Assembly (NCBI RefSeq): GCF_000710775.1
Contig: NZ_JOJP01000001.1
Location: forward strand, 3,390,583 to 3,454,582
Origin: Endozoicomonas elysicola
GTDB taxonomy: Bacteria; Pseudomonadota; Gammaproteobacteria; Pseudomonadales; Endozoicomonadaceae
DNA length: 64,000 nucleotides
Reading direction: 5' to 3'
Shown here: piece after piece, positions 21,433 to 40,098 of the stretch
Layout of the letters: every line of letters begins with the position of its first letter
How positions within the stretch are numbered: position 1 is the stretch's first letter
The notes under the pieces: generated by a model
Told to the model about the DNA's origin: nothing
The model's database searches: none
The model's input: the letters and a program-made list of their open reading frames with translations, nothing else
Program-made: the position numbers and the translations under genes

Positions 21433-21489
21433 TAAAGGAGGGCTTCACATGAAAAAAAGCAGAAAAATGGAGTAGAACATCAACAAAAG

Positions 21490-22071
21490 CTAATTTTTGG
21501 CCTTTACGCGATCTCCTTGGCCACTTCCAGTAACCGTCATCAGTATAAATTTAAAATAGTTACCAATATTCATATTTATTATCATCTCAGAATCTAACTG
21601 AGCCAACCTTTCAGGGTCTGACATATCGATACCATTCACTTGAGCTAACCCGGTGATTCCAGGGCGGACTCTGTAGATTCCTTGAGCCTCTCTAACCGAG
21701 ATCAAATGTTCTTGACTGGGTAAATTAGGTCGAGGCCCTACAAGACTCATCTCACCTATCAGCACATTCCAAAGTTGAGGCAACTCATCCAGCTTGGTCC
21801 TGCGGAGGAACCGACCGAAAGAGGTGATTGAAGAAACTGATGCTAGATGGCTGGCAACTGACGGGGTGCCAACCTTCATAGTTCGAAATTTAACAAGCGT
21901 AAAAACCTGTTGATTACGACCAATTCGTTTCTGCAAAAATAAAGGTGAGCCAGTGTCAAATAGACCACACACATAGATTACCAAAAAAAAAGGGAATCCA
22001 GCAATCAAACCTAGCAAAGCCAAAAAGACATCTAAACTACGCAGCACAGTACTTATCCTTGCTAAAAACAA
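21490..22071 (-). CDS. Undecaprenyl-phosphate sugar phosphotransferase (small monotopic PGT, PglC/WcaJ C-terminal type)
   Basis: It transfers a sugar 1-phosphate from a UDP-sugar to undecaprenyl phosphate and so starts the repeat unit at the inner membrane. The 193-residue protein is the minimal catalytic form. It has a re-entrant helix (residues about 13-37), then 'SPLFLQKRIGRNQQVFTLVKFRTM' and 'KLDELPQLWNVLIGEMSLVGPRP' with the Asp-Glu pair of the active site, and 'VRPGITGLAQVNG'. This is the polyprenol-phosphate sugar phosphotransferase family, not the multi-pass WecA/WbpL family. Its start overlaps the end of the reductase gene by 10 bases. QuiNAc- or FucNAc-phosphate is the likely donor sugar by context. 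Confidence 0.92.
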   Translation of the reverse strand: MFLARISTVLRSLDVFLALLGLIAGFPFFLVIYVCGLFDTGSPLFLQKRIGRNQQVFTLVKFRTMKVGTPSVASHLASVSSITSFGRFLRRTKLDELPQLWNVLIGEMSLVGPRPNLPSQEHLISVREAQGIYRVRPGITGLAQVNGIDMSDPERLAQLDSEMIINMNIGNYFKFILMTVTGSGQGDRVKAKN

Positions 22072-22973: not shown

Positions 22974-23143
22974 AACAAACAAATACAAAAAACGATTTCT
23001 AAATATAAATAGAAAGATTTAATTCATCAAAGCATTTAAACTCACTAACAAAAAAAGGGTATAGTTGGCAAGCAAAAAGCTTAGATAAAGATATTCTTTA
23101 AAAAATAAGCGAATATGGAGGTAGTCAAAACAATAAAAAAACG

Positions 23144-24616
23144 TTACGAGCGGCCATAGTTGTCTTCGAATCTTACTATATCATCTTCTCCAAGATAAGA
23201 ACCGCTTTGGACTTCAATTAACTCAAGATCAAGCTTACCGGGATTTTCCAACCTATGGACAGATCCTATTGGAATGTAGGTTGATTGATTTTCTGTAAGT
23301 AGTATTTCTTTACCGTCAATTTCAACAAGCGCAGTACCTTTAACAACTACCCAGTGTTCTGCCCTATGAAAATGCTTTTGCAGAGAAAGCTTTGCACCTG
23401 GCTTCACAATAATACGTTTAACTTGGAAACGATCCCCCATATCAACCGAGTCATATGCTCCCCATGGTCGGTAAACTTTTCTATGTAAGTTTGCCTCAGA
23501 TCTCCCCTGAGCCTTAAGCTTCTCTACAACCTTTTTAACATCCTGAACATTGTTTTTATGAGCCACAAGAATAGCATCATCGCTGTCTACTACGACAAGA
23601 TCATCAACACCTATTGTAGCAATCAATCTTTTATCACTACGCACGTAGCTATTCCGGGTATCATGGAGAATGACGTCACCCAAACAAGCATTCCCGAGCT
23701 CATCTTTTTCAGAAATTTCAGCAAGAGAAGTCCAGGAACCAACATCAGACCAACCGGCATCTAAAGGGACAACCACCGCATCCGAAGTTTTCTCCATCAC
23801 TGCATAATCTATAGAATCATCAGGACATGACTCAAACATTTCCTGATCAACCCTAACAAAGTCGAGATCGCTATTCTGGCTGTCCATTGCATTTTTGCAG
23901 ACAGATAAGATATCGGGACGAAATTTATTCAATTCCTCTAAATAACGAGAGGCTTTGAAAAGGAACATCCCTGAGTTCCAGAAGTATTCGCCAGAAGATA
24001 GATAGGCATGAGCAGTTTCTATATCAGGTTTTTCAACAAACTCTTGAACGGGGTAAAAAGTATTATCCGTATCAACGTCGCTACTATTTATTTCGTTGGA
24101 ACCCGCTTTTATATAGCCATAACCAGTTTCGGCATGGGTAGGTACAATACCAAATGTTACTAGCTTACCAAGCTTTGCTGCTGGTAAAGCATTTTCAACA
24201 GCAAGACGGAAAGCATCAAGATCTCGAATAACGTGATCGGCTGCGAGTACCAGAAGCAAGGGGTCTTGATCTGACTCATGTGAAGATGTTTCCTGATTCT
24301 GCTCACTAGACTGAAGTAATTTTAAAGAAGCCAATGCAACTGCAGGGGCGGTATTACGCCCAAAAGGTTCCAGAATAATAGCTTCTGCTTTCTTCCCCAT
24401 TAGCCTAAGTTGCTCAGCAACAAGAAATCGATGGTCTTCATTGGCAATTACCAATGGAGCTGAAACAGAGTCCAGAGTATCAAGGCGTGAAACTGTATTC
24501 TGAAACATGGTTTTATTATCAACCAGAGGCAAAAACTGTTTGGGGTTTAGCGCCCTGGATTTTGGCCAAAGTCGACTGCCCGTACCACCTGATAGAATAA
24601 CTGGAAAAATAGTCAT
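23144..24616 (-). CDS. manC: Mannose-1-phosphate guanylyltransferase / mannose-6-phosphate isomerase
   Basis: A type II bifunctional enzyme of 490 residues that supplies GDP-mannose. The N-terminal nucleotidyltransferase has '[26 protein letters not shown]' (residues 6-31), 'LVLAADHVI' and 'FVEKPD' (about 194). The C-terminal cupin-type isomerase domain has '[19 protein letters not shown]' and '[14 protein letters not shown]'. It feeds Gmd encoded at the other end of the locus. No phosphomannomutase gene is in the window, so mannose 1-phosphate must come from an AlgC-like enzyme elsewhere. It is more AT-rich than the housekeeping genes but less so than the transferases that follow. Confidence 0.95.
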
Positions 24617-24686
24617 AAAAGTTACGCCAAGAAGATATATTTTTAAAAGAGTATAATAAAGAAAAAACTGCTAACTTGATAAAAGG

Positions 24687-25838
24687 CTAAACACTATCAA
24701 CAGAGACACCCTCAACAAGAAATTCGAGTTTTTTTAGGACTATATGATCATCAAAATCTTTTTTTACACGTCTAATCGCAGCTCTTCCGTAAGATAATCT
24801 CTCACTTTCATTAACCAACATCTCTTTTAATGCAAGATAAAGTTGTAATGGATTTTTAGGGTCAACAGTAAAACCAGTTTGCCGATGAATACTAACCCAG
24901 GGAACACCTGATGGTAGATTTGTATTTATAACAGGTGTACCAAGGCTCATAGACTCTATTTGAGTAATACCAAAAGCTTCTGACCTTTCAACAGAAGGAA
25001 ATAAGAAACATTTCGATTTTTGAAGCAGCCAATATTTCTCATCGCTATCAAGAAAACGATTAATGAAAATGACATTATCCAATGAATACTCTTTTATTTT
25101 ATCCGAGATTAATGATGAGTATTCCCCTTCACCTGCAATAACAATTCTCGGTTCAAATCCATCTTTCTTAGCTAAAAGAAGCGCATCCATCAAAACATCA
25201 ACTCCCTTATAGTAACAGAGTCGACCAAAGAAACAGCCATCTATATTATCAAGTGTACCAAGCAGTTTACCTTTATAGTTGTTAGCAGAAACATTTACAT
25301 CGTCAACGTTAACAGAAAGAGGTAATACTACAATTTTATCCTTCAACATGTAAGGTTTTAGAAATTCAGAGTATGAAACTAGCTTAGGGGAAGTAACGAT
25401 TATTTTATCTACATTATAAACACTACTATTGAGCAATGGCTTAAGTAGTCTTTTTAGAAAGCCCTGCTTAACAATATCACTATGCCATACTGCAAAAATT
25501 TTAGTTCTTCGCTTAATAAAGCGTGTAAGAAAAAAAACAAAATCAGCCATAGGAAATGGAAGATGAAAAAAAACGAGATCACTCTTAAGAAATAGTCTTA
25601 TATAATAAAACACAAAAGAAAGAGAGACAGGCATCGAGAAAAAAGTGCCGAGTGAACTGCAACGATACACTTTGACATTGTTAATAATTTCCAATTGAGT
25701 AAATAAAGAAAATTTCTCTTGCACACATAAAATGGTTACACTGTGCTTTTTGGCTAAAAACTCACTATGTTGTTTGCAAACGGTTTCAACACCACCCATT
25801 ACAGGATAGTAAAATTTATTGACCTGTAAAATATTCAC
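24687..25838 (-). CDS. Glycosyltransferase, GT4 family
   Basis: The 383-residue GT-B enzyme begins 'MNILQVNKFYYPVMGGVETVCKQHSEFLAKKHSV', the classic GT4 glycine-rich acceptor loop. It has the donor-site signature 'SVERSEAFGITQIESMSLGTPVINTNLPSGVPW' with the EX7E arrangement in the C-terminal half. GT4 enzymes are retaining and often use GDP-mannose or UDP-sugars; the linkage cannot be predicted. Its start overlaps the preceding gene's stop by 4 bases, so the two are probably coupled. Markedly AT-rich, with many A-ending codons. Confidence 0.9.
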   Translation of the reverse strand: MNILQVNKFYYPVMGGVETVCKQHSEFLAKKHSVTILCVQEKFSLFTQLEIINNVKVYRCSSLGTFFSMPVSLSFVFYYIRLFLKSDLVFFHLPFPMADFVFFLTRFIKRRTKIFAVWHSDIVKQGFLKRLLKPLLNSSVYNVDKIIVTSPKLVSYSEFLKPYMLKDKIVVLPLSVNVDDVNVSANNYKGKLLGTLDNIDGCFFGRLCYYKGVDVLMDALLLAKKDGFEPRIVIAGEGEYSSLISDKIKEYSLDNVIFINRFLDSDEKYWLLQKSKCFLFPSVERSEAFGITQIESMSLGTPVINTNLPSGVPWVSIHRQTGFTVDPKNPLQLYLALKEMLVNESERLSYGRAAIRRVKKDFDDHIVLKKLEFLVEGVSVDSV

Positions 25839-26887
25839 AGAAACTCCTGATAAATCATTTCTGCTGCATCATCCCAGTTATAAACTGCCAGCAATTCCTC
25901 ATAATTCGACTTTTCATTATCTTTTATACTCAAAATAAAATCATCCAATCCTGTAAATGTGACTGGATCGAAATAAGAGATAGAATTTCCAGCAACCTCA
26001 TGAAACACCGGTAGGTTAGAAGCAGCGATGGGTAATTTAAACTTCATGGCTTCCAGTAAAGGTAAGCCAAAACCTTCATATAAGCTGGGATATATAAAGG
26101 CAGAGGCATTTTCATATAACATGGAAAGCTCATGATCATTTACATAGTCAGTAAAAACAATGTCTTTATGGCAGTGATCAATACTTTCACCTGTTATAAA
26201 ACCACCTATCCTTCCGACAATGACTAGTTTATATTTAGAATGAAGACCGTTTTGACTAATAAAATAATTGATTAAAGGCTTAATATTTTTATGAGGTTTA
26301 ACATTACCAACACACAGTAGATATTTGCTAGCCATCATCTTTTTAATTAACTCTGAAACCTCACCTTTATTAGAAGAAAAACGCCTGGGAAGCCCATTTT
26401 TTATAGCAATTACTGGTTTACCCCTGACAAGAAATTTAAAAAAAGATAAAATTTCAGACTTCGAAAATTCAGAGATGGTTAACAGTTTAGATGACCTAAT
26501 AATTTGTAAAAACAGAATCAAGTAAAAAGCCAAATAAACCTTAATCCCAAAAAACCTTCTAAATCTTAATGGGCAAACATCGTGAATGGTAGATATAATG
26601 CGTATGGAAGAATTCAAAGGAGCAACAGTTGGAGACGGTAGAAAATAGAGATCATATTTTTTTAAGTGCTTTGATAAAGAAAAAAGATTTTTATATGAAA
26701 AACGGCCATAGTTAACTTCAATAACATTGTAATTCTGAACTGGCAATATAGAAAGATTATCTTCAAGCCCAGGGTTTATCAGTACTCCAATTTGTATAGG
26801 AAGCTTTGATAGAGAACGAATAATTTCTACAGTATAAACACCTAAACCTGAATCATTTAGGCAACGGGCATCAATAAGCACCCTCAT
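25835..26887 (-). CDS. Glycosyltransferase, GT4 family (mannosyltransferase-like)
   Basis: The 350-residue GT-B enzyme starts 'MRVLIDARCLNDSGLGVYTVEIIRSL' and has 'YLLCVGNVKPHKNIKPLI' and 'FIYPSLYEGFGLPLLEAMKFKLPIAASNLPVFHEVAG', the EX7E donor-site motif. The 'GNxxPHKN' and 'YEGFGLP' forms are those of WbdA/WbpY-like mannosyl- and deoxyhexosyltransferases that use GDP-sugars, which fits the GDP-sugar pathway in this locus. The acceptor is unknown. The ATG has no good ribosome site. 93 bases separate it from the GT2 gene upstream. Confidence 0.9.
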   Translation of the reverse strand: MRVLIDARCLNDSGLGVYTVEIIRSLSKLPIQIGVLINPGLEDNLSILPVQNYNVIEVNYGRFSYKNLFSLSKHLKKYDLYFLPSPTVAPLNSSIRIISTIHDVCPLRFRRFFGIKVYLAFYLILFLQIIRSSKLLTISEFSKSEILSFFKFLVRGKPVIAIKNGLPRRFSSNKGEVSELIKKMMASKYLLCVGNVKPHKNIKPLINYFISQNGLHSKYKLVIVGRIGGFITGESIDHCHKDIVFTDYVNDHELSMLYENASAFIYPSLYEGFGLPLLEAMKFKLPIAASNLPVFHEVAGNSISYFDPVTFTGLDDFILSIKDNEKSNYEELLAVYNWDDAAEMIYQEFL

Positions 26888-26980
26888 AGGTAACCTTAAA
26901 ATAAAATTGAAAAATTAATGAGAATCACGAACGGTTTTGAACATACATATACAAAGTAAGAAGCTTTGAGCTTGAATATA

Positions 26981-27781
26981 TTAAAGCTCCTTTTTTAAAA
27001 TGGAAAATCGACTTCTATATAACTCTACAAAAAAAGAAAGGCCCAGCTTTTCCAAAAAAATCCTGACAAGCATTCTAGCCTTTTGATAGTAAAGATATAG
27101 TTTGCCGGCAGATGAAGAGGTAATTTTATGCTTAACTTTGGCTTTAAAAACTTCATCGAGTGCACGAAAAGCATATACATCTGAAACTCCACCATAGCGC
27201 ATGTTAGCGATACAATAGGGTAAATATAGAAATTTCTTTTTATGCGTATAAAAACGCAATGAAATTTCATAATCCATGGCGTAAGAATAAGAGAAATCAA
27301 AACCACCCAATTCTTTTAAAGTAGTTAATTTAAAGAAACTTGCTCCGCCATTGATAGTCATTTCCTTAATTAAATTTTTATGATCAGGTTTGAATAAGTA
27401 ATCTTTATTATCACCCTTCCAGTACTGCATATCACCATATAACAAGTCATCGTAATAAACTGAATTTTCAAAAATTTTTGAAATTACATCGGGCTGTAAC
27501 CAATCATCAGAATTTACAAAAAGAACGTAGTCACCGGTACAGTTTGATATTCCTTTATTGATTGCATCACTTATTCCATTATCTTCTTCAGAAATTAAAA
27601 CGGAAATTTTATCAGAATATTTTTTTATTATATCGAGTGTTCCATCAGTTGATGCTCCATCAACAACAATATATTCAATATATGGATACTGTTGGTTTAC
27701 AACACTTTGTACACACTGCTCAATGAGTGAAACATTGTTATAACAGACAGTAACTATACTAATCTTGTTCATTTCTTTCAT
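26981..27781 (-). CDS. Glycosyltransferase, GT2 family (WcaA-like)
   Basis: A 266-residue GT-A enzyme with 'ISIVTVCYNNVSLIEQCVQSVVNQQYPYIEYIVVDGASTDGTLDII' at the N-terminus and the metal-binding 'LFVNSDDWLQPDV' (SDD in place of DxD). 'NGGASFFKLTTLKELGGFD' forms the acceptor lid. The match is to GT2 enzymes of colanic-acid and O-antigen clusters that transfer one sugar with inversion. The start is either the ATG at 27781 or the ATG at 27772; both overlap the upstream gene's 3' end. Confidence 0.9.
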   Translation of the reverse strand: MKEMNKISIVTVCYNNVSLIEQCVQSVVNQQYPYIEYIVVDGASTDGTLDIIKKYSDKISVLISEEDNGISDAINKGISNCTGDYVLFVNSDDWLQPDVISKIFENSVYYDDLLYGDMQYWKGDNKDYLFKPDHKNLIKEMTINGGASFFKLTTLKELGGFDFSYSYAMDYEISLRFYTHKKKFLYLPYCIANMRYGGVSDVYAFRALDEVFKAKVKHKITSSSAGKLYLYYQKARMLVRIFLEKLGLSFFVELYRSRFSILKKEL

Positions 27782-28901
27782 CTAAAATATTTTCCAACAG
27801 AGTCGTCATCGTACGATTAAAATTTGACTGCGAAAAGTTTAGCCTTGAATATTCGAATAATTGTTCGCTTCTACTCAAATACGACTCAAAAGATTCTGTT
27901 TTTATTTCATCAATAACTTTTGTAAGTGATTTTAAAGATGGAGAGTCAAGAAAGTAACCTAAACCTTCAGGTAGAGAAACACCACACTCTCTGGTAATTA
28001 TTGGAATGACTCCATGAGACATACAAGTAAGTACAGATGTTGACATACCCTCCGAACAGGAAGGATGAATCATATACCCGACATTGGTGATTAAATCATT
28101 AAACTCAGGTGAATTTACATTAATGAAACCAATATTATGGATATTATCCCGATCCAAATTAAATAAATATTCTTCGTCTTTTGACAGGCCTGCAATAAAT
28201 AAATTTAGATTTTTATTTACCATGAAAAAATCAATTACAATATCCAATCCTTTATGTATTGCCCCTGATGAACCGAACCACAAATAATTCCTTTGACAAT
28301 TTTTGCTTTTTTTAATCTCTGAAAAGTGAGGCGAAATTATTGCCGGCGCATTAATAGTATAGATATTTAAACTTGACGAATAAGTTTTACGTGTATATTC
28401 ATTACCAAGAAGAATGATATTATCAGTGAGACCTAAATCAGATGATAAAACAAATTCATGCTTCCTCTTTTGTTTTGCATGAGGCTGACTTCTATTATTG
28501 AATTCGACTATTCGCTTAAACTCTGCTCTTTCTAAAAAATCTGGGTGACCGCCATTAAGATAAAGAATATTATTTCTTGCCATCTTATAATTATTTCTGA
28601 AAAAATACCCAAATCCTATCATTACGTCATATTTATCATTCAGCATCACGTCAGAACGGCAATCAACTACATCAACATTAAACCCTAAATCATTCAGCGC
28701 TAAAGCAATCTGCCTGACTTCGATCCACGATGAGTGCCTGGTTTCTTCTGAATATATGAACGGTTCATATAAATAAGAAATCAAAGCTGTTCTACGATTC
28801 ACACCATTGAAAATATTTTTTTTAACTCGATAAAACCTTAGCCTCCTCTTTAAATAAACTTTAAATGAGGTAGGAATAATACTTTTAATATAACAAATCA
28901 T
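27759..28901 (-). CDS. Glycosyltransferase, GT4-like, divergent N-terminus
   Basis: A 380-residue protein. The C-terminal half reads as a GT-B donor domain: 'YLWFGSSGAIHKGLDIVIDFF', 'LFIAGLSKDEEYLF', 'IHNIGFINVNSPEFNDLITNVGYMIHPSCSEGMSTSVLTCMSHGVIPIITRECG'. The N-terminal half ('RTALISYLYEPFIYSEETRHSSWIEVRQIALALNDLGFNVDVVDC') is poorly conserved. A basic leader of about 30 residues (KVYLKRRLRFYRVKKN) may aid membrane association. It overlaps both neighbours by a few bases. Donor and acceptor cannot be inferred. Confidence 0.82.
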   Translation of the reverse strand: MICYIKSIIPTSFKVYLKRRLRFYRVKKNIFNGVNRRTALISYLYEPFIYSEETRHSSWIEVRQIALALNDLGFNVDVVDCRSDVMLNDKYDVMIGFGYFFRNNYKMARNNILYLNGGHPDFLERAEFKRIVEFNNRSQPHAKQKRKHEFVLSSDLGLTDNIILLGNEYTRKTYSSSLNIYTINAPAIISPHFSEIKKSKNCQRNYLWFGSSGAIHKGLDIVIDFFMVNKNLNLFIAGLSKDEEYLFNLDRDNIHNIGFINVNSPEFNDLITNVGYMIHPSCSEGMSTSVLTCMSHGVIPIITRECGVSLPEGLGYFLDSPSLKSLTKVIDEIKTESFESYLSRSEQLFEYSRLNFSQSNFNRTMTTLLENILDERNEQD

Positions 28902-29806
28902 TTATTAATCAAAACTTTAAAAATCATTATTACTAAGCGAAAATTTAAAATAGAAATGACAGTAAGAAATTTTCTGTACTCACCCACCAAAAACAGTCTC
29001 TTAATCAAAGATGCAAGTAGTCTAAAGTTCGCATGGCTATTCTTCTTATCAAAAAGAGTAAGTATTCCATTTGTCACATTTTCAAAGTAAGAATCTAGAA
29101 TAGAGTCTGCAATCAGCAGTGTATCTTTTGTTTGAGAAATTCTATTTGTTTTAGATAATGATACACTGTGCTCTCTGTATTGGTAAATAACCTCGTTGAC
29201 AACTGTGAATTTCGCAGCTTTTGAAAAGCAGTCATAAGCAAACTTTAGGTCCTCAGCTCCCTTAAACTCAACCTCATCATAATAAATATTATTTTCTGTA
29301 ATAAAAGACCGACTAAACATAGTCGAGCCATTAGCAAATCCGAGAGAGCCAGCAGCCCAGTAGAAAATCATACAGTCAGTACTACCAGGAACAAATGGCC
29401 TTGACATAATATGATCATTCTCATCAATTACTTCCATATACCCATAGCAAAATTCACATCCCTCATCTTGTATTTTGTTCAGCTGCTTGATGAATCGATT
29501 ATTAACAGGATAATCATCGGCATCCATTTTAGCAACATATCTGCCACTAGCATTTCTTATGGCTAAATTTGAAGCGGCCGAAACACCTTTGTTTTTTTGC
29601 TTCAAGATTTTAATACATGGTTGATCAGCATATTTATTAATTAGCGATAAGGACCTATCTGTTGATCCATCATCGACAATAACGATCTCAAAACGTTTAT
29701 CTATTAACTCAAGTACTGAATCGATAGTTCTTTCTATATATCGCTCCGCATTATATACAGGAATAATAATTGAGCATAAAATCTCATTCAACCTTAAGTC
29801 CCTCAT
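28898..29806 (-). CDS. Glycosyltransferase, GT2 family
   Basis: A 302-residue GT-A enzyme with 'CSIIIPVYNAERYIERTIDSVLELIDKRFEIVIVDDGSTDRSLSLI', the metal site 'VAKMDADDYPVNNRF' and an acceptor region with 'GAEDLKFAYDCFSKAAKF' (the ED general-base motif). The C-terminus has a hydrophobic amphipathic end. The ATG at 29806 lies within the end of the flippase gene (23-base overlap), so translation is probably coupled. Very low GC. Confidence 0.9.
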   Translation of the reverse strand: MRDLRLNEILCSIIIPVYNAERYIERTIDSVLELIDKRFEIVIVDDGSTDRSLSLINKYADQPCIKILKQKNKGVSAASNLAIRNASGRYVAKMDADDYPVNNRFIKQLNKIQDEGCEFCYGYMEVIDENDHIMSRPFVPGSTDCMIFYWAAGSLGFANGSTMFSRSFITENNIYYDEVEFKGAEDLKFAYDCFSKAAKFTVVNEVIYQYREHSVSLSKTNRISQTKDTLLIADSILDSYFENVTNGILTLFDKKNSHANFRLLASLIKRLFLVGEYRKFLTVISILNFRLVIMIFKVLINK

Positions 29807-31157
29807 AACTATACATAAAAGCTAAGCATAATATCGATATTAAAGCTGCAAACAGCAAAGTAACCAAATAATGTAACTGAAAGGTATAATTGAAAATATA
29901 TAATAGCCCCAGAGGCGCACTCCACTTAATACCTTTTAGTGCCACTGAGAAATCAACACACAATCCGTTTTTTTTAACAATCAGAATATATTTAACCAAT
30001 AAAGTAGAAATTGAAATCACCAGGTATGCATAAGCAAAGGCATAAATATTTTTGTAATAATATGCAAATAAATATGAGATACTTGATCCAAATAAAATCA
30101 CTGTAGATATTTTATACATGATAACTGTGTCGCCCATACCATGTAAATAAACATCAAATGCAACACCAATTGATTTAAAATACTCACTAATCAGAAACCA
30201 CAGGAGGAGAATACTGTTTAGTTCATATACTGAATTAGTGAATAGTTTGACCAACTCACTGCTAAAAATCCCACCTACAGAAACAAAAAAAGTAAGGTAT
30301 GGAATAGCGGTTCTGAAATAATTATGCCAAGCCTCTTTAGTATCAGCCCTGTCATTAGCACAAGCTTGGTAAAACTTTGGTAACAGAATTTGCTGCGCTA
30401 AAGTATTTAGCACGCCAATTAAATTAAGCGCAATTGCAAGAATTACTGAAAAAACAGCGACATCATGAATATTCATCGAACTTTCAATCAGATAACGCTG
30501 CGAATACAGAGCAACCCAAGTGGCTAGAGCACTATATGCCAGGGGAAACAGGAAGCTCAAGACAGATCTGGTATTTTCAAAAGGATTCTGAAAACCACCA
30601 ACAACTTCAGATATATTTTTATACATGTACAGTCGAACACAAAGAATAGTAATTGTTTGTCCGACAATCATCCCTGTAATCCAGCTTATTGCGCTCTTTT
30701 CATATAAAAAACATAAAGTCAGAGAGATAACTAAAGAAAATGCTTGCCCAAAAACACTGGCCAGTGCAAAAAGTTTGAACCTTCCAAGAAGATTGATGTT
30801 GGGTAGTATCCCTTCATAAATACAGTTGATCAGAATATAGAAGAACAGCACCAAGGTTACACTATTAGTATCCGTTCTAACCCAACTGATGAAAAAACAA
30901 TAGATCAATAGTGTAACAATAAGAAACTGAAGTAATCGTTTTATAGTCCGCCACATATTTAGAGTGGCTATCAGGTAAAAAAGTGACCTATGCAAGTAAA
31001 GATAAACAGGGCCAGCTATTAACATGCTATAAAATGATGTCAGCCCAAGAATAAGGTGCATTCTACCAACTTCTTCTGGATTAAGAAGCGTGACCGATAG
31101 CTTAAATGATAAAAATGAGAAACAAACAACTATAATCCGAGCAAAAATTATAGCCAT
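29784..31157 (-). CDS. wzx: Wzx-like oligosaccharide flippase
   Basis: A protein with about 12-14 predicted membrane helices and Wzx/MATE-like layout. Hydrophobic segments alternate with short charged loops, as in 'AIIFARIIVVCFSFLSFKLSVTLLNPEEVGRMHLILGL'. The single flippase of the locus would move undecaprenyl-diphosphate-linked repeats across the inner membrane. The open frame reaches a TTG at 31211; I prefer the ATG at 31157 because the first helix begins there, though neither has a good ribosome site. GC is around 30%. 200 bases upstream lies an intrinsic terminator, so either read-through or a separate promoter in 31212-31346 is needed. Confidence 0.82.
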   Translation of the reverse strand: MAIIFARIIVVCFSFLSFKLSVTLLNPEEVGRMHLILGLTSFYSMLIAGPVYLYLHRSLFYLIATLNMWRTIKRLLQFLIVTLLIYCFFISWVRTDTNSVTLVLFFYILINCIYEGILPNINLLGRFKLFALASVFGQAFSLVISLTLCFLYEKSAISWITGMIVGQTITILCVRLYMYKNISEVVGGFQNPFENTRSVLSFLFPLAYSALATWVALYSQRYLIESSMNIHDVAVFSVILAIALNLIGVLNTLAQQILLPKFYQACANDRADTKEAWHNYFRTAIPYLTFFVSVGGIFSSELVKLFTNSVYELNSILLLWFLISEYFKSIGVAFDVYLHGMGDTVIMYKISTVILFGSSISYLFAYYYKNIYAFAYAYLVISISTLLVKYILIVKKNGLCVDFSVALKGIKWSAPLGLLYIFNYTFQLHYLVTLLFAALISILCLAFMYSYEGLKVE

Positions 31158-31346
31158 GTTTGGAGAGGTCGATTTTTCTGTAATCACACTAAATATTTCA
31201 ATTCGAAGCAATTGGCCATATGATGACTGTTCTTCTCTTGGAAAGTGCTATGGGATTTAACATCCAAGTAAGTTCAAGTCAATTATTCAACGAATTCAGT
31301 CTTTACTGCAATAGTAGAGATTCATTGTTTAAGCATTATACATACT

Positions 31347-31372
31347 AAAAAAAGCCCCAGCAGCACTGGGGT
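31347..31372 (-). terminator. Intrinsic terminator inside the polysaccharide locus
   Basis: On the minus strand CCCCAG-TGCTG-CTGGGG is followed by a run of T (plus strand: A-run 31347-31353, arms 31355-31360 and 31366-31371, with an extra G-U pair). It lies 44 bases after the methyltransferase stop and before wzx. Confidence 0.85.
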
Positions 31373-31415
31373 ACGCATATTTATCAACAACTGGTTAATA
31401 ATAAAGAAATATCTT

Positions 31416-32339
31416 TCAGTCTAGTTTTTTTTGTTTCATATATTTTGATGCAAAATCGCCATTATGTCCCCATACAATAATATAGTTATGTGGAGCAGTT
31501 AATGGTTCTTCTTCAAAAATTTCAAAGGGGGGAAGTAACTCTTCTAGTTGCTTCAGCGTCAGCTTACCTTCGCTTCTTTCTCCACCTAATCCGCTGTTCA
31601 TTGTTAAATATCCGCGTTTTGCTCCAGCCATGACCTTTTTTATATACGTTCTTTGCAATATGCTTGGCAGTTCTGAGAATGCATAGTTACTAATCACAAG
31701 GTCGTAGGGCTCAGGGCAACTCTCATTTATAGCCCTCACCCGATATGCCCCATTAAGAAGCATTGAATTTAAATATTTTTTAATCAGCTCATTGACAAAT
31801 GGCAAATCAAAAAGCGTCGCTAAATTTACGCTTAGCAACTGGTCATTAACCAATGCTTGCCCTCCGTAGCCACAGCCAATTTCTGCAATACTTTTAAATT
31901 CACGACCAAACAATCCACTTAAATCAGAACTTACCTTAATATATCGCAGAGTATTGGGAGACAGTGCTTCTGCAATGTCAGGATATTTATATTTTATAGG
32001 ATTACCTACATCATCTGCTCTACAGGATGTTTTAAGAGCAAGATCGAAGAGGCCATCATTCCTTGATAAAGTAATATTGAGATACTTCTCACCATCATCT
32101 CTATTCACATGCTCTAGAATAGCCTGATACTCGGGATTTCTTTTAAAATTGTCAAAGTATTTTTGGCTCTCCAGTGCTTTCATCACTGCGGCACCGTACT
32201 CTCCATTTTCAGAATCAGAGCGAAATTCACTCTTATGCGCAAATACTTTTTCTGTCCCTAGGAGTTTAAGATATATTCTTCTCCATACATACTGTGCATA
32301 TAATGGATCACTTATCATTTTTTTTATTTTTTCTATCAT
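31416..32339 (-). CDS. Putative sugar O-methyltransferase
   Basis: A 307-residue protein whose middle carries a class I SAM-binding motif, 'FKSIAEIGCGYGGQALVND' (about residues 150-168), followed by 'TLFDLPFVNELIKKYL' and 'PYDLVISNYAFSELPSILQRTYIKKVM'. This is the arrangement of the putative sugar O-methyltransferases of O-antigen clusters. The N-terminal 110 residues include 'LNITLSRNDGLFDLALKTSC' and are not recognised. It would methylate a repeat-unit sugar, perhaps as a chain-length or capping signal (inference). It ends just before the internal terminator. Confidence 0.78.
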   Translation of the reverse strand: MIEKIKKMISDPLYAQYVWRRIYLKLLGTEKVFAHKSEFRSDSENGEYGAAVMKALESQKYFDNFKRNPEYQAILEHVNRDDGEKYLNITLSRNDGLFDLALKTSCRADDVGNPIKYKYPDIAEALSPNTLRYIKVSSDLSGLFGREFKSIAEIGCGYGGQALVNDQLLSVNLATLFDLPFVNELIKKYLNSMLLNGAYRVRAINESCPEPYDLVISNYAFSELPSILQRTYIKKVMAGAKRGYLTMNSGLGGERSEGKLTLKQLEELLPPFEIFEEEPLTAPHNYIIVWGHNGDFASKYMKQKKLD

Positions 32340-32516
32340 TTCTTTTTCTTATCACCTATGAATTTATTTGTGTTTTAAAAATTTTATTTTAAGTAATAAT
32401 TTTTAATACATTGATTTCAAGGGTTACCTGTTATGAAATTTTATTCATTACATTTAGTTCTTATAGTATTTTGCAACCCTTTTTCTTACAGTTATTTTTA
32501 TCAAAGAAAGCACTGT

Positions 32517-33611
32517 CTAATTTATAATTTTTCGCAGAGCCTTATCATAAGTATAATCACTTAAAGTACGATTATAACCATTCATAGCAATATTCTCTCT
32601 TTCCTTTTCCTCTTGCAAGTAATAATTAATTTTTGACAACAGCTCTTCTTTATTATCAAAAATATCACATTCAGTTCCAATAGACAGATACAAATCAAGC
32701 TCATCTGTCTTTTCTGTTAACAGAAAAGCACCTGTAGCTGTAATCTCAAATATTCTACCTTTTACAAATCGAAGATCCGGATTCCCGAATGCCGCGCTAA
32801 AATTTAATACTATCTTTGATCTATTATAAACCTCAATTAGCTCTGACTGACCTAAACGCCCAGTTCCCCAACCATTACCCCATGCTTTTACATTTATTCC
32901 CTCTTTAAGTAGATAATCTATGTAATTTTTCCTATCTTCAAAGCATTGTCCAACAAAAGAAACATCAATATCTTTAGTTAAATCCATTTTTCTATAAATT
33001 GAGTGATTAGCACTAAACTGGCATAGGACTGAGTTTAATCCCATTTCTAATCTTTTATGATGTCTCTCCGCGATTGTCGTGACCGCTTTACTACTGCAAT
33101 CAACAAGTGCTTTAGTTTTGTGATAGCGTTTATCATCATCAAAAAGCCACAAAACCAAATCAATCCCTAAAGAATCCCTAAAGTATTTCAAATCACTATG
33201 CTCAAAGTAATCTTCAAACAGAGTTATGAATATCGTATCAATTTTATACGTTAAAACAATTTCCTTTAAAATTGAGCATGCTTTCTCCCTTCCGTATTTA
33301 ACATAGCATTCATAGAATTCAAAGCGTAATAAGTCTAATTCATATATATTAAGCAACGTATGAAAAAAGTTATACTCTTCATAGGACAAGCCCCTGCTTG
33401 CATCCAAGTAATCGTATTTTAAACCAATATATAATACCCTATGATTACCATTAAGCCTGAAAATCTGGCTTTCTTCAGCTGCTAAGACTTCGATATTTTT
33501 TAAGCAAAGGTATCGAGTATACTTCTTGTTTACAAAAAACCGCCTGACCCTATCAATTTGAAACTTCGTAGAACTCTTTAATTTTTCCACAAACATAATC
33601 AATTTGTTCAT
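32517..33611 (-). CDS. CgeB-like glycosyltransferase (Glyco_trans_1_2 type)
   Basis: A 364-residue GT-B-like protein. The C-terminal half matches the CgeB/YkvP group: 'DVSFVGQCFEDRKNYIDYLLKEGINVKAWGNGWGTG', 'YNRSKIVLNFSAAFGNPDLRFVKGRIFEITATGAFLLTEKTDELDLYLSIGTEC'. The N-terminal half is variable. The start is uncertain: the frame opens at an ATG at 33611, overlapping the upstream aminotransferase gene by 59 bases, unusually long for this operon. An in-frame ATG at 33596 reduces this only slightly. 177 AT-rich bases with nothing recognised lie between it and the methyltransferase. Confidence 0.75.
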   Translation of the reverse strand: MNKLIMFVEKLKSSTKFQIDRVRRFFVNKKYTRYLCLKNIEVLAAEESQIFRLNGNHRVLYIGLKYDYLDASRGLSYEEYNFFHTLLNIYELDLLRFEFYECYVKYGREKACSILKEIVLTYKIDTIFITLFEDYFEHSDLKYFRDSLGIDLVLWLFDDDKRYHKTKALVDCSSKAVTTIAERHHKRLEMGLNSVLCQFSANHSIYRKMDLTKDIDVSFVGQCFEDRKNYIDYLLKEGINVKAWGNGWGTGRLGQSELIEVYNRSKIVLNFSAAFGNPDLRFVKGRIFEITATGAFLLTEKTDELDLYLSIGTECDIFDNKEELLSKINYYLQEEKERENIAMNGYNRTLSDYTYDKALRKIIN

Positions 33612-34659
33612 CTGTAAGTTGTACAGCAGAGGGAAGCCATAATCCCTTCTGACCTATAGATTGTGAGACAGGGTGCTCTCCAGAGACTCTATATGCTTCC
33701 TGCTCATTAATTGGTGGATACATGACCCTGGTTCCAATACCAGATTCTTTTAAAAATAATTGGAGGGCATCTCTATTTTCAACTAGAACATCAATAAACC
33801 ATGGAGTAGTACACTCTAGGTCCTGATCAAAAAAATTTACCTCATCAACACCTGTTAAATGATGTTGATATCTGGATAAAATTTCTTTTTTCCTTTCAAC
33901 TCGTAGCTGTAGCTTCTTCATCTGCTCAATTCCGATACAGGCTTGAAGCTCGGTAAATTTGAAATTAAAGCCTATTGAATCATGAATATCATTACCACCA
34001 CCCGAACGGCCAAAGTCTTTTAGCCTGCGCAGCTTATAAGCAATCTCATCATTATCTGTGATCAAGGCTCCGCCTTGTCCAGTGGAGATAATCTTTGGAG
34101 CTGAAAATGAAAAGCTACCAATTACCCCTGCTTTTCCAATATGACGACCATCTGGATAATATGACCCTAAGGATTGAGCAGCATCTTCTATCAATGCGAG
34201 ATTATTATCGGATGCAAGCTTCTCAAATGCATTGATACCTGGTTTCGGGTAACGACCATTTGCTGAAACCAATATTATGGCTTTTGTTTTCTCTGTTATA
34301 GCTGACTTTACTTTCTCAATATCAAGACACAATGTGTCTGGCTCTACATCAACGAATACTGGTACTGCACCAAACATTTTCACAGAGTTTGGTGTTGCTA
34401 TCATTGTATAGTTAGGTACTATTACTTCATCATCAGATTTTATTCCTGCTGCCATAGCAGCAAGTGTTAAACTGATCGTTCCATTATTAACAACAACACA
34501 GTGTTTTGCACCAGTGTATTCAGCAATCATCTGCTCAAATTTTTCAGTGCGTTTAAATTCAGTAATAAAGCCATCTTCATCCATATATTCACAGATGGCT
34601 TTTTTTTCCTCTTCACCAAAGAGAGGCCGCATTTGCATTATAAATTCATTGTTCATCAC
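33553..34659 (-). CDS. DegT/DnrJ/EryC1 family sugar aminotransferase
   Basis: A PLP-dependent nucleotide-sugar aminotransferase of 368 residues. It has 'CVVVNNGTISLTLAAMAAGI', 'DEVIVPNYTMIATPNSVKMFGAVPVFVDVE', 'ALIEDAAQSLGSYYPDGRHIG', the internal-aldimine lysine in 'FSFSAPKIISTGQGGALITD' and 'NFKFTELQACIGIEQMKKL'. The lysine is present, so it is an aminotransferase and not a ColD-type dehydratase, which has His there. Beside gmd, a role on a GDP-4-keto-6-deoxyhexose (perosamine-synthase-like) is plausible, but the Fcl-like SDR and the cupin in between allow another keto position. Its start overlaps the acyltransferase gene by 4 bases. Confidence 0.9.
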   Translation of the reverse strand: MMNNEFIMQMRPLFGEEEKKAICEYMDEDGFITEFKRTEKFEQMIAEYTGAKHCVVVNNGTISLTLAAMAAGIKSDDEVIVPNYTMIATPNSVKMFGAVPVFVDVEPDTLCLDIEKVKSAITEKTKAIILVSANGRYPKPGINAFEKLASDNNLALIEDAAQSLGSYYPDGRHIGKAGVIGSFSFSAPKIISTGQGGALITDNDEIAYKLRRLKDFGRSGGGNDIHDSIGFNFKFTELQACIGIEQMKKLQLRVERKKEILSRYQHHLTGVDEVNFFDQDLECTTPWFIDVLVENRDALQLFLKESGIGTRVMYPPINEQEAYRVSGEHPVSQSIGQKGLWLPSAVQLTDEQIDYVCGKIKEFYEVSN

Positions 34660-35213
34660 ATACTTTCCAAAAACTGTTTTTCCAAATTCAGAATCGTTTC
34701 TTTATCGCGATACTTGAGTAGTTTTGCAGGAGCACCTGCATATAATCCCCATTCATCTAAATTATTTTTCACTAGGGACTGTGCTCCTACTGATGCTCCG
34801 TTGTTAAAAATGACGTTCGGTAGTACAGTACTATTCGCACCAACGATGCAATGACGCTTAAGTGTAATTTCACCAATCTCTACATTTCCTTTGTATTCAA
34901 TTGGTACCAGGGGTGAAGCAATACCAGAAACGTAATCATCACTGCCAGCAGCTAAAACAACATTTGGAGCTAGTGTAGAGAATGATTCAATAGTTACCTT
35001 TGAGCGACTTCCACCAATGATCTTGCATCCAGCAGCAATATGCACATTACTGCTAATTGTTAATGCAGTTGATATATAGGTAAAGTCATCAATTATTACA
35101 TTATCATCAATTTCAACTAATTCGGGGTACCTTATACGTACAGTTTTACCAATAATAACATTTTGACCTATACGCTTTAGCTTAGAGATGTCAAAAAAGA
35201 TATTATCGGTCAC
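34656..35213 (-). CDS. Hexapeptide-repeat (LbetaH) acyltransferase
   Basis: A 185-residue left-handed beta-helix protein. Imperfect hexapeptide repeats run from about residue 15 to 155 ('VIIGKTVRIRYPELVEIDDNVIIDDFTYIS', 'VHIAAGCKIIGGSRSKVTI', 'ITLKRHCIVGANSTVLPNVIFNNGASVGAQSLV'), ending in the 'LYAGAPAKLLKYRD' motif of CoA-dependent acetyltransferases. It most likely N-acylates the amino sugar made by the aminotransferase encoded next to it. It overlaps both neighbours by 4 bases, indicating a tightly coupled sugar-modification cassette. Confidence 0.88.
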   Translation of the reverse strand: MTDNIFFDISKLKRIGQNVIIGKTVRIRYPELVEIDDNVIIDDFTYISTALTISSNVHIAAGCKIIGGSRSKVTIESFSTLAPNVVLAAGSDDYVSGIASPLVPIEYKGNVEIGEITLKRHCIVGANSTVLPNVIFNNGASVGAQSLVKNNLDEWGLYAGAPAKLLKYRDKETILNLEKQFLESM

Positions 35214-35620
35214 AACCGTCTCCTATCTTGATCTGGCCCTACATATGGACCATTTTTAATCTCAAGAACCTGTGTCCCGTTTTCAACAATGTCATATCCA
35301 TGACCCCCTCGCAGTAAAATGAGGATATCTCCAGCCGTTACATTTAACTCAGCCACTTTCGTCTCTGCTGTATCATAAATATTGGCCTTTATTTTTCCCT
35401 GCCTTACAAAAAGTACTTCCTGCGTCCAGAGAACCTCGCGTTTAACTTCATTATGTATATGAGCCTTCAATTCCTTCCCGGCATCGTAACCCCACACACC
35501 AACCTGCATGAATTCAGAGTCTTGAGAAAAGAAATTAAGCCCTTCAGTCCATGCTGTACTTGCAGGTATATGACGGGCTAATACAAGATCGCCCTCTTTG
35601 ATTTCAACGACATTAGTCAT
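35210..35620 (-). CDS. Small cupin protein of the sugar cassette
   Basis: A 136-residue single-domain cupin: 'QVGVWGYDAGKELKAHIHNEVKREVLWTQEVLFVRQGKIKANIYD' and 'DILILLRGGHGYDIVENGTQVLEIKNGPYVGPDQDRRRL', with His in 'AHIHNE' and 'GGHGYD' as possible metal ligands. It lies between an SDR and an acyltransferase/aminotransferase pair and overlaps both. Cupins in such places can be ketoisomerases (FdtA-type) or epimerases acting on the keto sugar before amination. I do not recognise the exact subfamily, and it lacks the His-rich RmlC signature. Confidence 0.7.
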   Translation of the reverse strand: MTNVVEIKEGDLVLARHIPASTAWTEGLNFFSQDSEFMQVGVWGYDAGKELKAHIHNEVKREVLWTQEVLFVRQGKIKANIYDTAETKVAELNVTAGDILILLRGGHGYDIVENGTQVLEIKNGPYVGPDQDRRRL

Positions 35621-36536
35621 TTTTCATTCCTTTTTTGATATACCATTCGATTGTCTCTGCAACACCCTGTCTGAATTCTCTACTGGGGCGCCAATCAAAA
35701 TATTCAAACCCACGCGAGCCATCAACTGTCTTGTATGGAGCTCCATCGGGCTTACTTGAATCAAGAGTTAATCTTCCCTCATATCCAACCATGTCTTTAA
35801 TCATTGTTGCCATATCGAGGATTGAAATACCTTTGCCTATACCAATATTGATAGGCTCAATCGATGGTTTAATATCAATGGCGCGAATCATAGCTTCAGC
35901 ACCGTCGTCAACATGGAGCCATTCTCGAACGGGCTTTCCTGTTCCCCACACCACAACTTCAGGCTCGTTTAACTGTTTTGCCTTAACAAACTTCATTATC
36001 AAAGCGCCCAGTGCATGGGATCGCTCTTCTTCAAAATGATCATCTGGGCCATACATATTGGATAAAATAAGATTGACTGAATCGAGCCCATATTGCTTTG
36101 CATACCCCCAAGCACCAATCCATGAAGCTTTCCGAACAAAGCCATACACCATTACTGATTCGTGTAAGGGGCCATCCCAAAACTCTTCTTCTTTAAAAAG
36201 TGTTGCTTTTCCCGGATATGCACAGTTTGAAATCGGGTTAACTATGCGAGTAACTTTACTTATCGAGGAAGCCTCAAGAAGGTTCAATGTTATCTGTAGG
36301 TTATTATGAAATAATTCAGCAGGATGTTTGTAGCCAAACTGAATACCACCAACATAAGCAGCACAATTAAGAACATACTCAGGCTTTATATCTTCAAAAA
36401 ATGCTATTACCTCTTTCCGGTCTCTTAAATCGAGCCCTTTACTTATTGATGTGCCAACATAATCAATCCCTTTTTGATCCAGCAGGCGACAAACCCGTTT
36501 TCCCAAAAAACCAGTGGAGCCTGTAACTACAATCAT
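35613..36536 (-). CDS. GDP-L-fucose-synthase-like SDR with altered catalytic motif
   Basis: An extended SDR of 307 residues with cofactor loop '[12 protein letters not shown]' and family landmarks of GDP-fucose synthase: '[35 protein letters not shown]', '[29 protein letters not shown]', '[24 protein letters not shown]' and '[18 protein letters not shown]'. Where Fcl has Tyr-x-x-x-Lys (YAIAK), this protein reads YGFVRK, so Arg stands at the canonical Lys position and Lys follows. It may be a diverged 3,5-epimerase/4-reductase or act on another GDP-6-deoxyhexose. It overlaps gmd by 4 bases and the cupin by 8. Confidence 0.82.
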
Positions 36537-37567
36537 TCTTCACTTCCACCATAAGTATCATATTTCAAGTCATATTTAACCATAATATCAATTAATTCTT
36601 TTATACTTGTTTTTGGTTCCCAGCCAAGTTTTTCCTTTGCCTTAGCGGGATTTCCCCATAACAAATCTACTTCAGCAGGTCGAAAATACTTAGGATCAAT
36701 TTCAACACAAACTTCATTCGTTTTAGTGTTAACTCCTATTTCATTCACACCATGGCCTTCCCATCTAATTTGAATATCGAGGGATTCAAAAGCCCACTCG
36801 ACAAATTGCCTTACTGTATAAGTTTCACCGGATGCAATAACATAATCATCAGGCTGATCTTGCTGCAGCATAAGCCACATGCATTCAACATAATCTTTCG
36901 CATACCCCCAGTCTCGTTTAGCATCAAGATTGCCGAGCTTCAATACTTTTTGTTTTCCTTGGGAAATACGAGCCGCTGCTTTTGTAATTTTTTTAGTTAC
37001 AAAAGTTTCTCCTCTCCTTGGAGACTCATGATTAAAAAGAATACCGTTACATGCATAAAGATCATACGATTCACGATAATTCACTGTTACCCAATAAGCA
37101 TATAATTTTGCTGCACCATAAGGCGACTTGGGATAAAAAGGCGTAAGCTCGGACTGAGGCGCTGTTTCAGGAATACCCCCAAAAAGCTCTGATGTTGATG
37201 CCTGGTAAAATCGAGGTTTCTGACCCAGGTCTTTAATAGCATCAAGCAGTCTTATCGTACCAACAGCATCGACTTCTGCCGTATATTCCGGCACCTCAAA
37301 TGAAACTGCAACATGAGACTGAGCACCTAGATTATAAATCTCATCAGGTTGAATTTTTGCTAATAATGTATGCAAATTGCTAGAATCTGAAAGATCACCA
37401 TGATAAGTATTAAATTGTGGATGCTCCATTATGTGGTCTATTCGCTGCGTAGTAAAAACTGAACTACGCCTCACAATAGCATGAACTTCATAGCCTTTTT
37501 CCAGGAGGAATTCTGCCAAATAAGAACCATCTTGCCCAGTAACGCCTGTTATAAATGCTTTTTTCAA
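36533..37567 (-). CDS. gmd: GDP-mannose 4,6-dehydratase
   Basis: Gmd converts GDP-D-mannose to GDP-4-keto-6-deoxy-D-mannose. The 344-residue protein carries '[33 protein letters not shown]', '[34 protein letters not shown]', the catalytic 'STSELFGG' and '[21 protein letters not shown]', then '[18 protein letters not shown]' and '[18 protein letters not shown]'. All are canonical. The start is a TTG at 37567 ((M)KKAFITG), with GGATGA upstream; a stop codon three codons before it excludes an earlier start. It is the first gene of the locus, behind a leader of about 1.8 kb. The following five genes are coupled to it by short overlaps. Confidence 0.95.
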
Positions 37568-38253: not shown

Positions 38254-39185
38254 TTAGTGGGTATTCATCGCGTCCTTCTTTTGTTTCCACTTAAGGCCTG
38301 CCTTAAATGTTTTGGCATTGTTCAAGAAATTGACTGCAATGTGTCTGATGCCAGACAGCATTTCGGGAGCATTGCCTCCTCAAATTCGACAATCATCTTC
38401 TCTTACATTGCAACATCCATTTTCCAGTGGAGCTTGTTATCGATAAACCAATGTTCTCTGCTAGCCTTTGCTAATTTCTCAGCCGTTAATTCAGAAGATG
38501 AATATAATAACTGATGCTGATGTCATCCGTATTAAAGCCATCTCCTTCCATTCGGGCTGATACAGCAATACCCAGCGTTTTCATTCCTTTCCAATCGAAT
38601 GAGAAATTAACAAACTCATCAAATACATCACTTACCAGGTAAAGGCGACTCTCCATTCTCCCATGACTTTTCTCTTCAGTTCGATAGGTGTCGCCTCTTA
38701 TTTATTAATCCTCTCCATTGAGAAGTGATTTTTAAATGCCTCGTGAAGCTTTCCCTGATTGCCTTTTACCGCAAGAAGATAGCCTGCACCTTTCGACAAT
38801 CTTTTGAGCTATATCTCTCAGACACCCCATAGCATCGAGCGTCACCAGACATCCCTTGAGAGCCAGCAGGTTCAGCAATTCTGGGATTGCAGTTATCTCA
38901 TTGCTTTTAGCATCGGTTTTAATTTAGCCCAACACCACATCATTAGCAGTGGAGAATGCACTAACCATATGTTTTAACCAATCCAAAGCCTTCAATTTCC
39001 TCCCAGCCTTCTGCACCAGCAATAACAGCACAAATGGTTAATAGCAAAATATCAGAAAGTTTATGTTCAACTTTTCCTGACTGCCTTGGGTCATAAATAT
39101 TTGAAAGGTTTTCCATCAGATTGAAAGCGTTCATTTCATTGTCATATTCGGTAGAAATTATAGATATATGACAATGGTTGTTCAT
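38254..39185 (-). pseudogene. ISAs1-family transposase relic
   Basis: The first 70 residues are intact (ORF 38961-39185): '[37 protein letters not shown]' is the N-terminal domain of ISAs1-type (H-repeat-associated) transposases. Further along the minus strand, other frames give '[33 protein letters not shown]', '[15 protein letters not shown]', 'LYLVSDVFDEFVNFSFDWKGMKTLG' and '[25 protein letters not shown]', then '[18 protein letters not shown]', in the order of the family. Several frameshifts and stops separate them, so it is dead. A possible end (TTTCATGCGTTTTCCCTG, 39240-39257) lies just upstream; I could not find its partner. Plus-strand open frame 38164-38514 is only its antisense. Confidence 0.85.
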
Positions 39186-39334
39186 TTTAACCTATAAGTA
39201 AATACAACTATATCGTTCTAGCCCTCTGAATTAGGACACTTTCATGCGTTTTCCCTGGGATAGTAGTACTCAAGGCAAAATATCGAAAGAACCGCGATTA
39301 ACACCAGCCCTTACAGACAGACACCAACAAAAAA

Positions 39335-39348
39335 GCACGCTACCGCCC
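39335..39348 (-). promoter_or_regulatory. ops element (RfaH recruitment site) of the polysaccharide locus
   Basis: Reading the minus strand: GGGCGGTAGCGTGC followed by a run of T. This contains the complete 12-base ops consensus GGCGGTAGCGTG known from enterobacterial polysaccharide, LPS and hemolysin operons (JUMPstart core). There the paused polymerase recruits RfaH through the non-template strand hairpin, raising processivity over long operons. It points towards gmd, is non-coding, and lies 222 bases beyond the dedD stop. The promoter should be within 39360-39560, but I see no strong -35/-10 pair there. Confidence 0.85.
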
Positions 39349-39570
39349 GTCGACTTAAGCATATGCCGAAACTACTATACGTAGCAATCCTGAATCAGAG
39401 AGAAATCCTTATTGCAGTAGTACTTGCTTTAACCATCCTATAACCTAAAAAGGGCCCTCTCTATGCCTATACCCGTTATAGCCCTATTTTTCAGAGCATA
39501 CGAATTCTACACGACAGACAAAAAGTAATCACGGCTTATATGTAAGAAATAATAAAAACTACGTATCAAC

Positions 39571-40098
39571 TCACGGAGTAAAACGAACAATAATACTCTC
39601 AAGTCCCATCTCTTTCTTGATGGTAACTTTTAGCTGCTGAAGCTCAACTGGCCGCACTTCAGGGCCTATGTATACCCGATAAAAAATCTTACCCTTTTCA
39701 GTAGATATTTTTTTCTGGTAGGCGCTGTACCCTTTACCTTTAAGCTGCTTTTCCAGGTTACGGGCATTGGTTTTATCTGCAAACGTTGCCAACTGCAAAG
39801 ACCAGGCTTTCAGGTGCCCATTACCATCCACACCTGTTGGCTTTTCAGCATCACGGCGTTCCGATTCAAGAACGATTTCAGAAGACGAAGACACCACTTC
39901 CACAACATCTGGAGTAACACCAAGCTGATCAACAAAAACAGGCACCGGTGGTGGCTGAAGAGGAGGAGCCGCAGGAGCAGGTGTTGAAGAAACCAAAGGA
40001 TGAGTCTCCCCTCCTGTAAAAAGCGCAGGTGCGAGAACAATCAATAAAACCAGCAATACGACGGCACCGATCAGTCTCTGCTTAAGTCCCTCGCCCAA
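39571..40098 (-). CDS. dedD: SPOR-domain cell-division protein DedD
   Basis: The 175-residue protein has one N-terminal membrane helix ('LIGAVVLLVLLIVLAPALF', residues about 9-27), a Pro-rich and acidic periplasmic linker, and a C-terminal SPOR domain ('AWSLQLATFADKTNARNLEKQLKGKGYSAYQKKI...FYRVYIGPEV') that binds denuded septal peptidoglycan. DedD helps septation with FtsN. The start is a TTG at 40098 with GGAG 7 bases upstream and no in-frame ATG. Position after folC is canonical; the usual next gene, cvpA, is displaced by the polysaccharide locus. Confidence 0.9.
   Translation of the reverse strand: MGEGLKQRLIGAVVLLVLLIVLAPALFTGGETHPLVSSTPAPAAPPLQPPPVPVFVDQLGVTPDVVEVVSSSSEIVLESERRDAEKPTGVDGNGHLKAWSLQLATFADKTNARNLEKQLKGKGYSAYQKKISTEKGKIFYRVYIGPEVRPVELQQLKVTIKKEMGLESIIVRFTP

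Follow-up and report, generated by a model that had tools for sequence, protein, structure and literature searches.

RfaH is known for its control of surface glycans, toxins and conjugation. The E. coli RfaH/ops system (waa, O-antigen, capsule, hly and F tra) shares with the system described here the exact 12-mer and an NGN domain carrying K10, R16, Q24 and R73 (PMC5995543 and PMC7593976), and LPS core, polysaccharide and conjugation operons are targets there and candidate targets here. Unlike in E. coli, antiphage defence operons are among the candidate targets, and ops base 12 is free in their leaders. JUMPstart elements (Hobbs and Reeves; RF01707, Weinberg 2010) resemble our glycan leaders in having, ahead of polysaccharide genes, a stem-loop that immediately precedes ops, and a conserved stem-loop among them is reported in PMC2864571; our defence leaders differ from them in having four helices, one of which pairs with ops. 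UpxY, LoaP, TaA and ActX-type proteins are likewise NusG paralogues that antiterminate long operons (PMC7593976), but the paralogue found here would act in trans on many sites and not in its own operon, and its NCBIfam scores against UpxY and LoaP, 34 of 100 and 22 of 125 bits, are far under the cut-off. The monomorphic beta-RfaH (PMC13015549) adjoins its targets and has no ops-binding residues, whereas the ops regulon here is dispersed; loss of E48-type autoinhibition contacts is possibly common to both. RfaH- or ops-led defence operons are described in no open-access title or abstract start found by our literature search, and PMC7593976, in its section on targets, names toxin-antitoxin systems as neighbours of rfaH and does not count them among the targets of ops. 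Compared with these systems, the site studied here is one more case of the known ops type, and the ops defence leader with its putative regulon is a variant of that type which the search did not find in print.

The window, that is, the whole 64,000-nucleotide stretch of Endozoicomonas elysicola DNA that was analysed, carries the following features around this site.

17014..18516, minus strand: purF-like gene beyond the glycan cluster as seen from ops (GATase and Pribosyltran matches)
19384..37567, minus strand: surface polysaccharide cluster read from ops (Pfam matches; low G+C)
38601..39257, minus strand: remnant of a transposase, separating ops from the operon (ISAs1-like by reading of the sequence)
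39323..39376, minus strand: leader block of 54 bp, 92.6% identical to its counterpart in genome G010 (locus L159)
39336..39347, minus strand: ops element GGCGGTAGCGTG, exact (sequence match and enrichment counts)
39350..39369, minus strand: leader hairpin TCGGC-N10-GTCGA (RNAalifold on 10 leaders)
39571..40098, minus strand: SPOR-domain gene in the dedD position, upstream of the leader (domain match)

The sequence-only reading had reported an exact ops on the minus strand followed by C and a T-run, and the letters agree: that strand runs ...TTTCGGCATATGCTTAAGTCGACG GGCGGTAGCGTG CTTTTTT..., 223 bp downstream of the dedD-position gene. The element is the only match in the window with up to two mismatches, a search that is no evidence in itself with 1.8 matches expected by chance; exact copies are expected 0.006 times in 64 kb from base composition. 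The same reading had the element pointing into a glycan locus, which holds for the direction and fails for a straight run-in, as a broken transposase remnant begins about 80 bp past ops and the first intact glycan gene, a GDP-mannose 4,6-dehydratase (36533-37567), lies 1.78 kb downstream. Besides this dehydratase, the cluster encodes an epimerase, a hexapeptide protein, a DegT aminotransferase, five glycosyltransferases, ManC, another epimerase, an initiating sugar transferase, a Polysacc_synt_2 protein and three products without Pfam match; the Polysacc_synt_2 gene (19384-21432) forms its far end. Since the purF-like gene lies beyond that end, the cluster splits the order folC-dedD...purF, and the same insertion place is seen, on its upstream side, in G010, another species of the genus. 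There the L159 leader occupies the same chromosomal position, with folC-/dedD-like genes upstream by reading and a WecA-like first gene 20 nt past ops, a gene lost in the window genome. The window remnant is 82–88% identical, in three pieces, to a second one in this genome, which follows the ops at C1:2370.5 kb (L029, 16085-16761); both lie about 70–80 nt downstream of ops in polysaccharide loci, and L194 has a 70% relative close to its ops.

The remnant raises the question of whether the window ops is a relic, the transposase insertion having cut off the glycan cluster, whose transcription would now start at promoters within the remnant or past it. The remnant itself and the lost first gene speak for this, as do the same disposition at L029 and the promoter-like sites of the remnant region, though these are no more frequent than in shuffles (7 against 6.7 in 37500-39700); a promoter scan found no sigma-70-like promoter between dedD and ops either. 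However, the 54-bp leader has kept its identity to G010 and its hairpin is intact, and no strong terminator was found on the minus strand in 37500-39700. RfaH action spans many kilobases, so an untranslated stretch of 1.8 kb is the kind of barrier that it overcomes. We consider the relic reading unlikely. Very probably, judging from sequence comparison, the ops at the window site still works, as part of a JUMPstart-like leader that serves RfaH-type antitermination.

Recurrence across the genome bears on this reading. The suggestion that further ops copies would lie before other long operons was borne out, as seven more exact copies of GGCGGTAGCGTG were found in the 5.6-Mb genome, making 8 against 0.52 expected from base composition (P ~8e-8). 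Six of the 8 carry the 16-mer GACGGGCGGTAGCGTG, for which 0.002 are expected. With one mismatch allowed, the genome has 34 matches against 28 for the reversed control, which is no clear excess, and the 16-mer with three mismatches has 44 against 52, so that the evidence in this genome lies in the exact copies. Across 37 Endozoicomonadaceae genomes, exact ops occurs 202 times and the reversed pattern 12 times; the corresponding counts for the 16-mer are 27 and 0. Three family genomes without the paralogue described below, G001, G002 and G028, carry 0, 0 and 1 ops. In the rest of the order, where RfaH was called present at a score of at least 90 bits from profile position 1, 34 genomes with RfaH carry 62 ops and 76 without it carry 32 (Mann-Whitney p 6e-8), and the control pattern makes no such difference (51 and 94, p 0.57). 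Thus, ops frequency tracks RfaH presence across the order.

Could the 12-mer be a chance match or a mobile-element repeat? Several leaders of this genome are mutually related, as mobile copies would be, but the flanks are unrelated at most sites, and the family-wide enrichment, the tracking of RfaH, the strand bias and the covarying hairpins in fixed register (below) all stand against it. A chance match in this genome was rejected on the exact-copy counts, and we give this explanation almost no credence. Among the ops-bearing or paralogue-bearing relations in the family, 13 of 202 fit poorly, for example G005, a 2.6-Mb genome which keeps the long paralogue and has neither an exact ops nor a defence leader; its genome is reduced, and the regulon may have been lost along the way. 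Genomes from other families of the order often have an exact ops some 60–1300 bp from rfaH itself (G081, G127, G131, G143, G092, G056, G078, G054, G094 and G063), which suggests cis-linked rfaH-ops operons.

An exact ops had also been taken to imply an RfaH-type NusG paralogue, and one is present, though divergent. A NusG-domain search of the genome returned two proteins only, the housekeeping NusG (C1:5265.9 kb) and the following.

C1:686.2-686.9 kb: RfaH-like paralogue, 208-215 aa (NusG-domain search)

It matches E. coli RfaH structures at E 1e-5. Against TIGR01955 (RfaH), it scores 70.2 bits in the genome and 80.3 as a protein, over the N-terminal half only and below the curated cut-off of 144.5, and short-form paralogues of sister genera reach 128–138. 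Paralogues occur in 34 of the 37 family genomes (E <= 1e-5), in a long form of about 208–220 aa (genera g1, g4 and g5) and a short form of about 160–175 aa (g3, g7 and g8). The long form is some 50 aa longer than E. coli RfaH, with a lengthened linker and an insert preceding the last KOW strand. Its nearest named relative, 98% identical, comes from an assembly titled Endozoicomonas cretensis, and RfaH annotation in some genomes of a sister genus has already been published (PMC13286007). The ops-reading residues K10, R16, Q24 and R73 are retained; among the ops-contacting side chains, K10 and R73 are kept, and H20 and R23 are replaced by N and S. The E48-R138 interdomain salt bridge of autoinhibition lacks its E48 side, the residue before PLFP being A. 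Eight sequences of the genus have A, S, T or V in this position, and the aligned g4, g5, g7 and g8 sequences have E. The R138 equivalent is probably retained, as judged against the E. coli RfaH C-terminus. Loss of E48 in E. coli releases RfaH from its ops requirement (PMC13015549).

With two ops contacts missing in a divergent paralogue, and RNA structure conserved in the leaders, the element might instead be a pause or JUMPstart RNA read by another factor, without the RfaH-like protein. This is rather improbable in our assessment, because the ops count follows RfaH presence, the genome has only these two NusG-domain proteins, and G4-G8 are invariant while the pausing base 12 varies in the defence leaders (see below).

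The leader upstream of the window ops belongs to a class of ten that share GTTTCG...TCGACG before ops (the window, L159, L165, L173, L179, L184, L190, L107, L114 and L108). The next genes are glycan-type at all ten sites by reading of the predicted proteins, with gene-by-gene testing for the window. RNAalifold on the ten leaders gave a 5-bp stem, 39365-39369 with 39350-39354 in the window, in which all 50 of 50 cells are paired; covariation was 0.587 against 0.295 ± 0.061 in shuffles (0/500) and at most 0.102 when slid, with a two-sided change in one pair only. The 3' base of the stem lies 2 nt before ops. The hairpin also appears in a single-strand fold of the window, but such folds of ops plus leader were no stronger than shuffles, so its support comes from comparison only. 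Like the JUMPstart elements, the window thus has a stem-loop abutting ops in the 5' leader of polysaccharide genes, although the stem sequence differs and RF01707 scores 20.6 bits at 39336-39368, below its gathering score of 35. An Rfam scan of the window stretch and 25 loci placed JUMPstart below gathering in the window and two loci, and found no other plausible family. Over all classes, 24 of 49 non-redundant leaders have a stem of at least 5 bp ending 1–3 nt before ops, against 9 and 10 of 49 at offsets 11–13 and 21–23. This suggests that an RNA hairpin abutting ops may be a general part of the signal.

What the sites lead into was read at 84 of the 202, in 13 few-contig genomes, two of them partly covered (8 of 9 and 4 of 7 sites). 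At 71 of 83 sites, ops and the next ORF share a strand (p 2e-11), and the mean same-strand run is 4.4 genes downstream of ops and 1.6 upstream. Among the downstream proteins (149 of 158), Glyco_transf_9 occurs 14 times (waa heptosyltransferases), TraH 4 times and N6_Mtase 3 times, and many others are glycan enzymes; the 146 upstream proteins are mainly of other, mostly housekeeping families, with 4 Wzz/Poly_export proteins. Leader classes follow cargo: 62 of 3240 pairs share at least 22 of 40 positions in register, and none do when slid by 3. The other exact copies of the window genome lead into polysaccharide clusters (L027 and L029) and into defence operons (Septu at L026, Gabija at L030), and at L025, L028 and L031 the downstream genes matched no assignment. 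As separate observations, Zot-like and replication-like filamentous-phage genes precede ops at L026, L028 and L032 of this genome, and what follows ops there may be defence cargo (Septu at L026); PADLOC found Wadjet JetC/JetD pairs upstream of ops at three sites, L183, L185 and L189, which are the waa ops of three congeneric genomes.

The defence-type sites have a leader of their own. Fourteen training leaders (12 with exact ops, 2 with the last ops base changed), aligned over ~90 nt, fold into four helices, in which P1 pairs leader GCUAYC with ops GGUAGC, and P2 extends P1 directly, ending 2 nt before ops in the same register as the glycan hairpin. This model pairs 89.0% of cells against 37–57% when slid. 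Covariation was 0.362 against 0.248 ± 0.019 in the shuffled comparison for the training leaders, and 0.314 against 0.182 ± 0.010, with 59 double changes against 19.3, for 41 aligned held-out leaders (A6); the R2 alignments A4 and A6 are biased towards the structure, having been either its source or fitted to it. P1-type complementarity of GCTAYY to ops occurs in 9 of 12 defence-class leaders; elsewhere it occurs in 10 of 69, within the shuffle range (5.4, maximum 12), so it marks the defence class only. Held-out leaders with an otherwise exact 12-mer have G at ops base 12 in 8 cases, A in 14, C in 12 and T in 1, while bases G4-G8, which RfaH reads, are invariant; GGCGGTAGCGTH occurs 161 times across the family against 76 for the control.

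A model of this leader, R2, gave 104 matches in 26 of the 37 family genomes, 14 of them training sites, and no match under stricter filters in the 110 genomes searched from other families of the order. The three family genomes that lack the paralogue have no R2 match, nor do eight that have it. From the 90 non-training matches, 40 were fetched among the better-scoring, blind to cargo. One hand-picked ORF from each of 20 held-out loci was submitted to PADLOC, and 17 matched (L231, L250 and L253 did not): BrxC (1381 and 1466 bits), a type III methylase (766), another methylase (264), DrmA (621), DrmD (689), type I subunits (132–1292, seven loci), HmaA (2234), PDC-M68B (186), AriA (109) and Helicase_II (167). 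Nine more loci are positive through relatives 63–96% identical to the tested proteins, so that 26 of the 40 have defence-type cargo (type I/III restriction, BREX, DISARM, Hma and other PADLOC-matched genes), and, some of these relatives being orthologues, the 26 represent fewer independent events. The other 14 loci, which lie in L230-L269 (for example L250, L253, L255 and L264), have cargo matched to no assignment, being without PADLOC-matched or without scanned cargo, and are candidates for undescribed defence genes. PADLOC-matched cargo follows 6 of the 14 training leaders (L030, L141, L157, L163, L174 and L175), which is a minimum, the individual scans having covered these six and L028, which gave no match. 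With the same 17 queries, matches were obtained at 4 of the 12 ops sites of the leader class and at 1 of the 72 other ops sites, the latter not all scanned one by one and including five weak R2 matches (L134, L139, L159, L160 and L198; 28–64 bits); counting all PADLOC tests, at least 3 of the 72 have defence genes (Septu at L026, type I at L133, fragments at L148). At L167, a BrxL gene lies on the strand opposite to ops.

A leader that precedes many different cargoes in at least three genera, with related copies behind Zot- and replication-like phage genes in the window genome, might also be the conserved end of a mobile island carrying defence genes, its structure serving integration and not transcription. 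Against this, the leader runs in the direction of transcription and has ops at its very end, with the first gene starting a few dozen to a few hundred nt further on; its helices covary as RNA, and it is absent from the three family genomes without RfaH. We hold the island reading to be unlikely. On balance we favour, as somewhat probable, that in Endozoicomonadaceae the RfaH-type antiterminator acts through the promoter-proximal four-helix ops leader (P1 to the ops core, a hairpin for the unconserved G12) as a common switch of antiphage operons, setting full-length expression or silencing at elongation through one protein. The operons in this proposed switch are type I and III restriction, BREX, DISARM, Hma, Gabija and Septu.

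The mechanism that we propose would run as follows. RNA polymerase would transcribe the leader towards the glycan genes, and a short RNA hairpin would form at the exit channel once the polymerase reaches ops and, presumably, pauses there. Classical pause hairpins have an 11-nt spacing; with the polymerase at ops position 11, the hairpins of both leader classes have their base at a similar distance, 12 nt from the RNA 3' end. The long RfaH-like protein, whose gene lies at 686 kb, could then read the non-template ops DNA exposed at this point; it would stay on the polymerase, exclude NusG/Rho and allow the low-G+C cluster to be transcribed to its end; the cluster would still be driven from the window ops despite the transposase remnant. 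In E. coli, RfaH depends on ops bases 4-8, and with G12C the position-11 pause is lost but recruitment is not abolished (PMC5995543). The hairpin may support the pause during RfaH loading and, in defence leaders, may take over from G12. After the polymerase moves on, P1 could form and close over the ops RNA. Within the family, operons for LPS core, other polysaccharides, conjugation and antiphage defence would have come under the same system, with a separate leader type for each.

If this is true, one antiterminator and one leader design would stand over many unrelated antiphage operons, and the leader would provide a sequence handle for finding undescribed defence genes. Phages of these bacteria would then meet a single control point over surface receptors, gene transfer and intracellular immunity.
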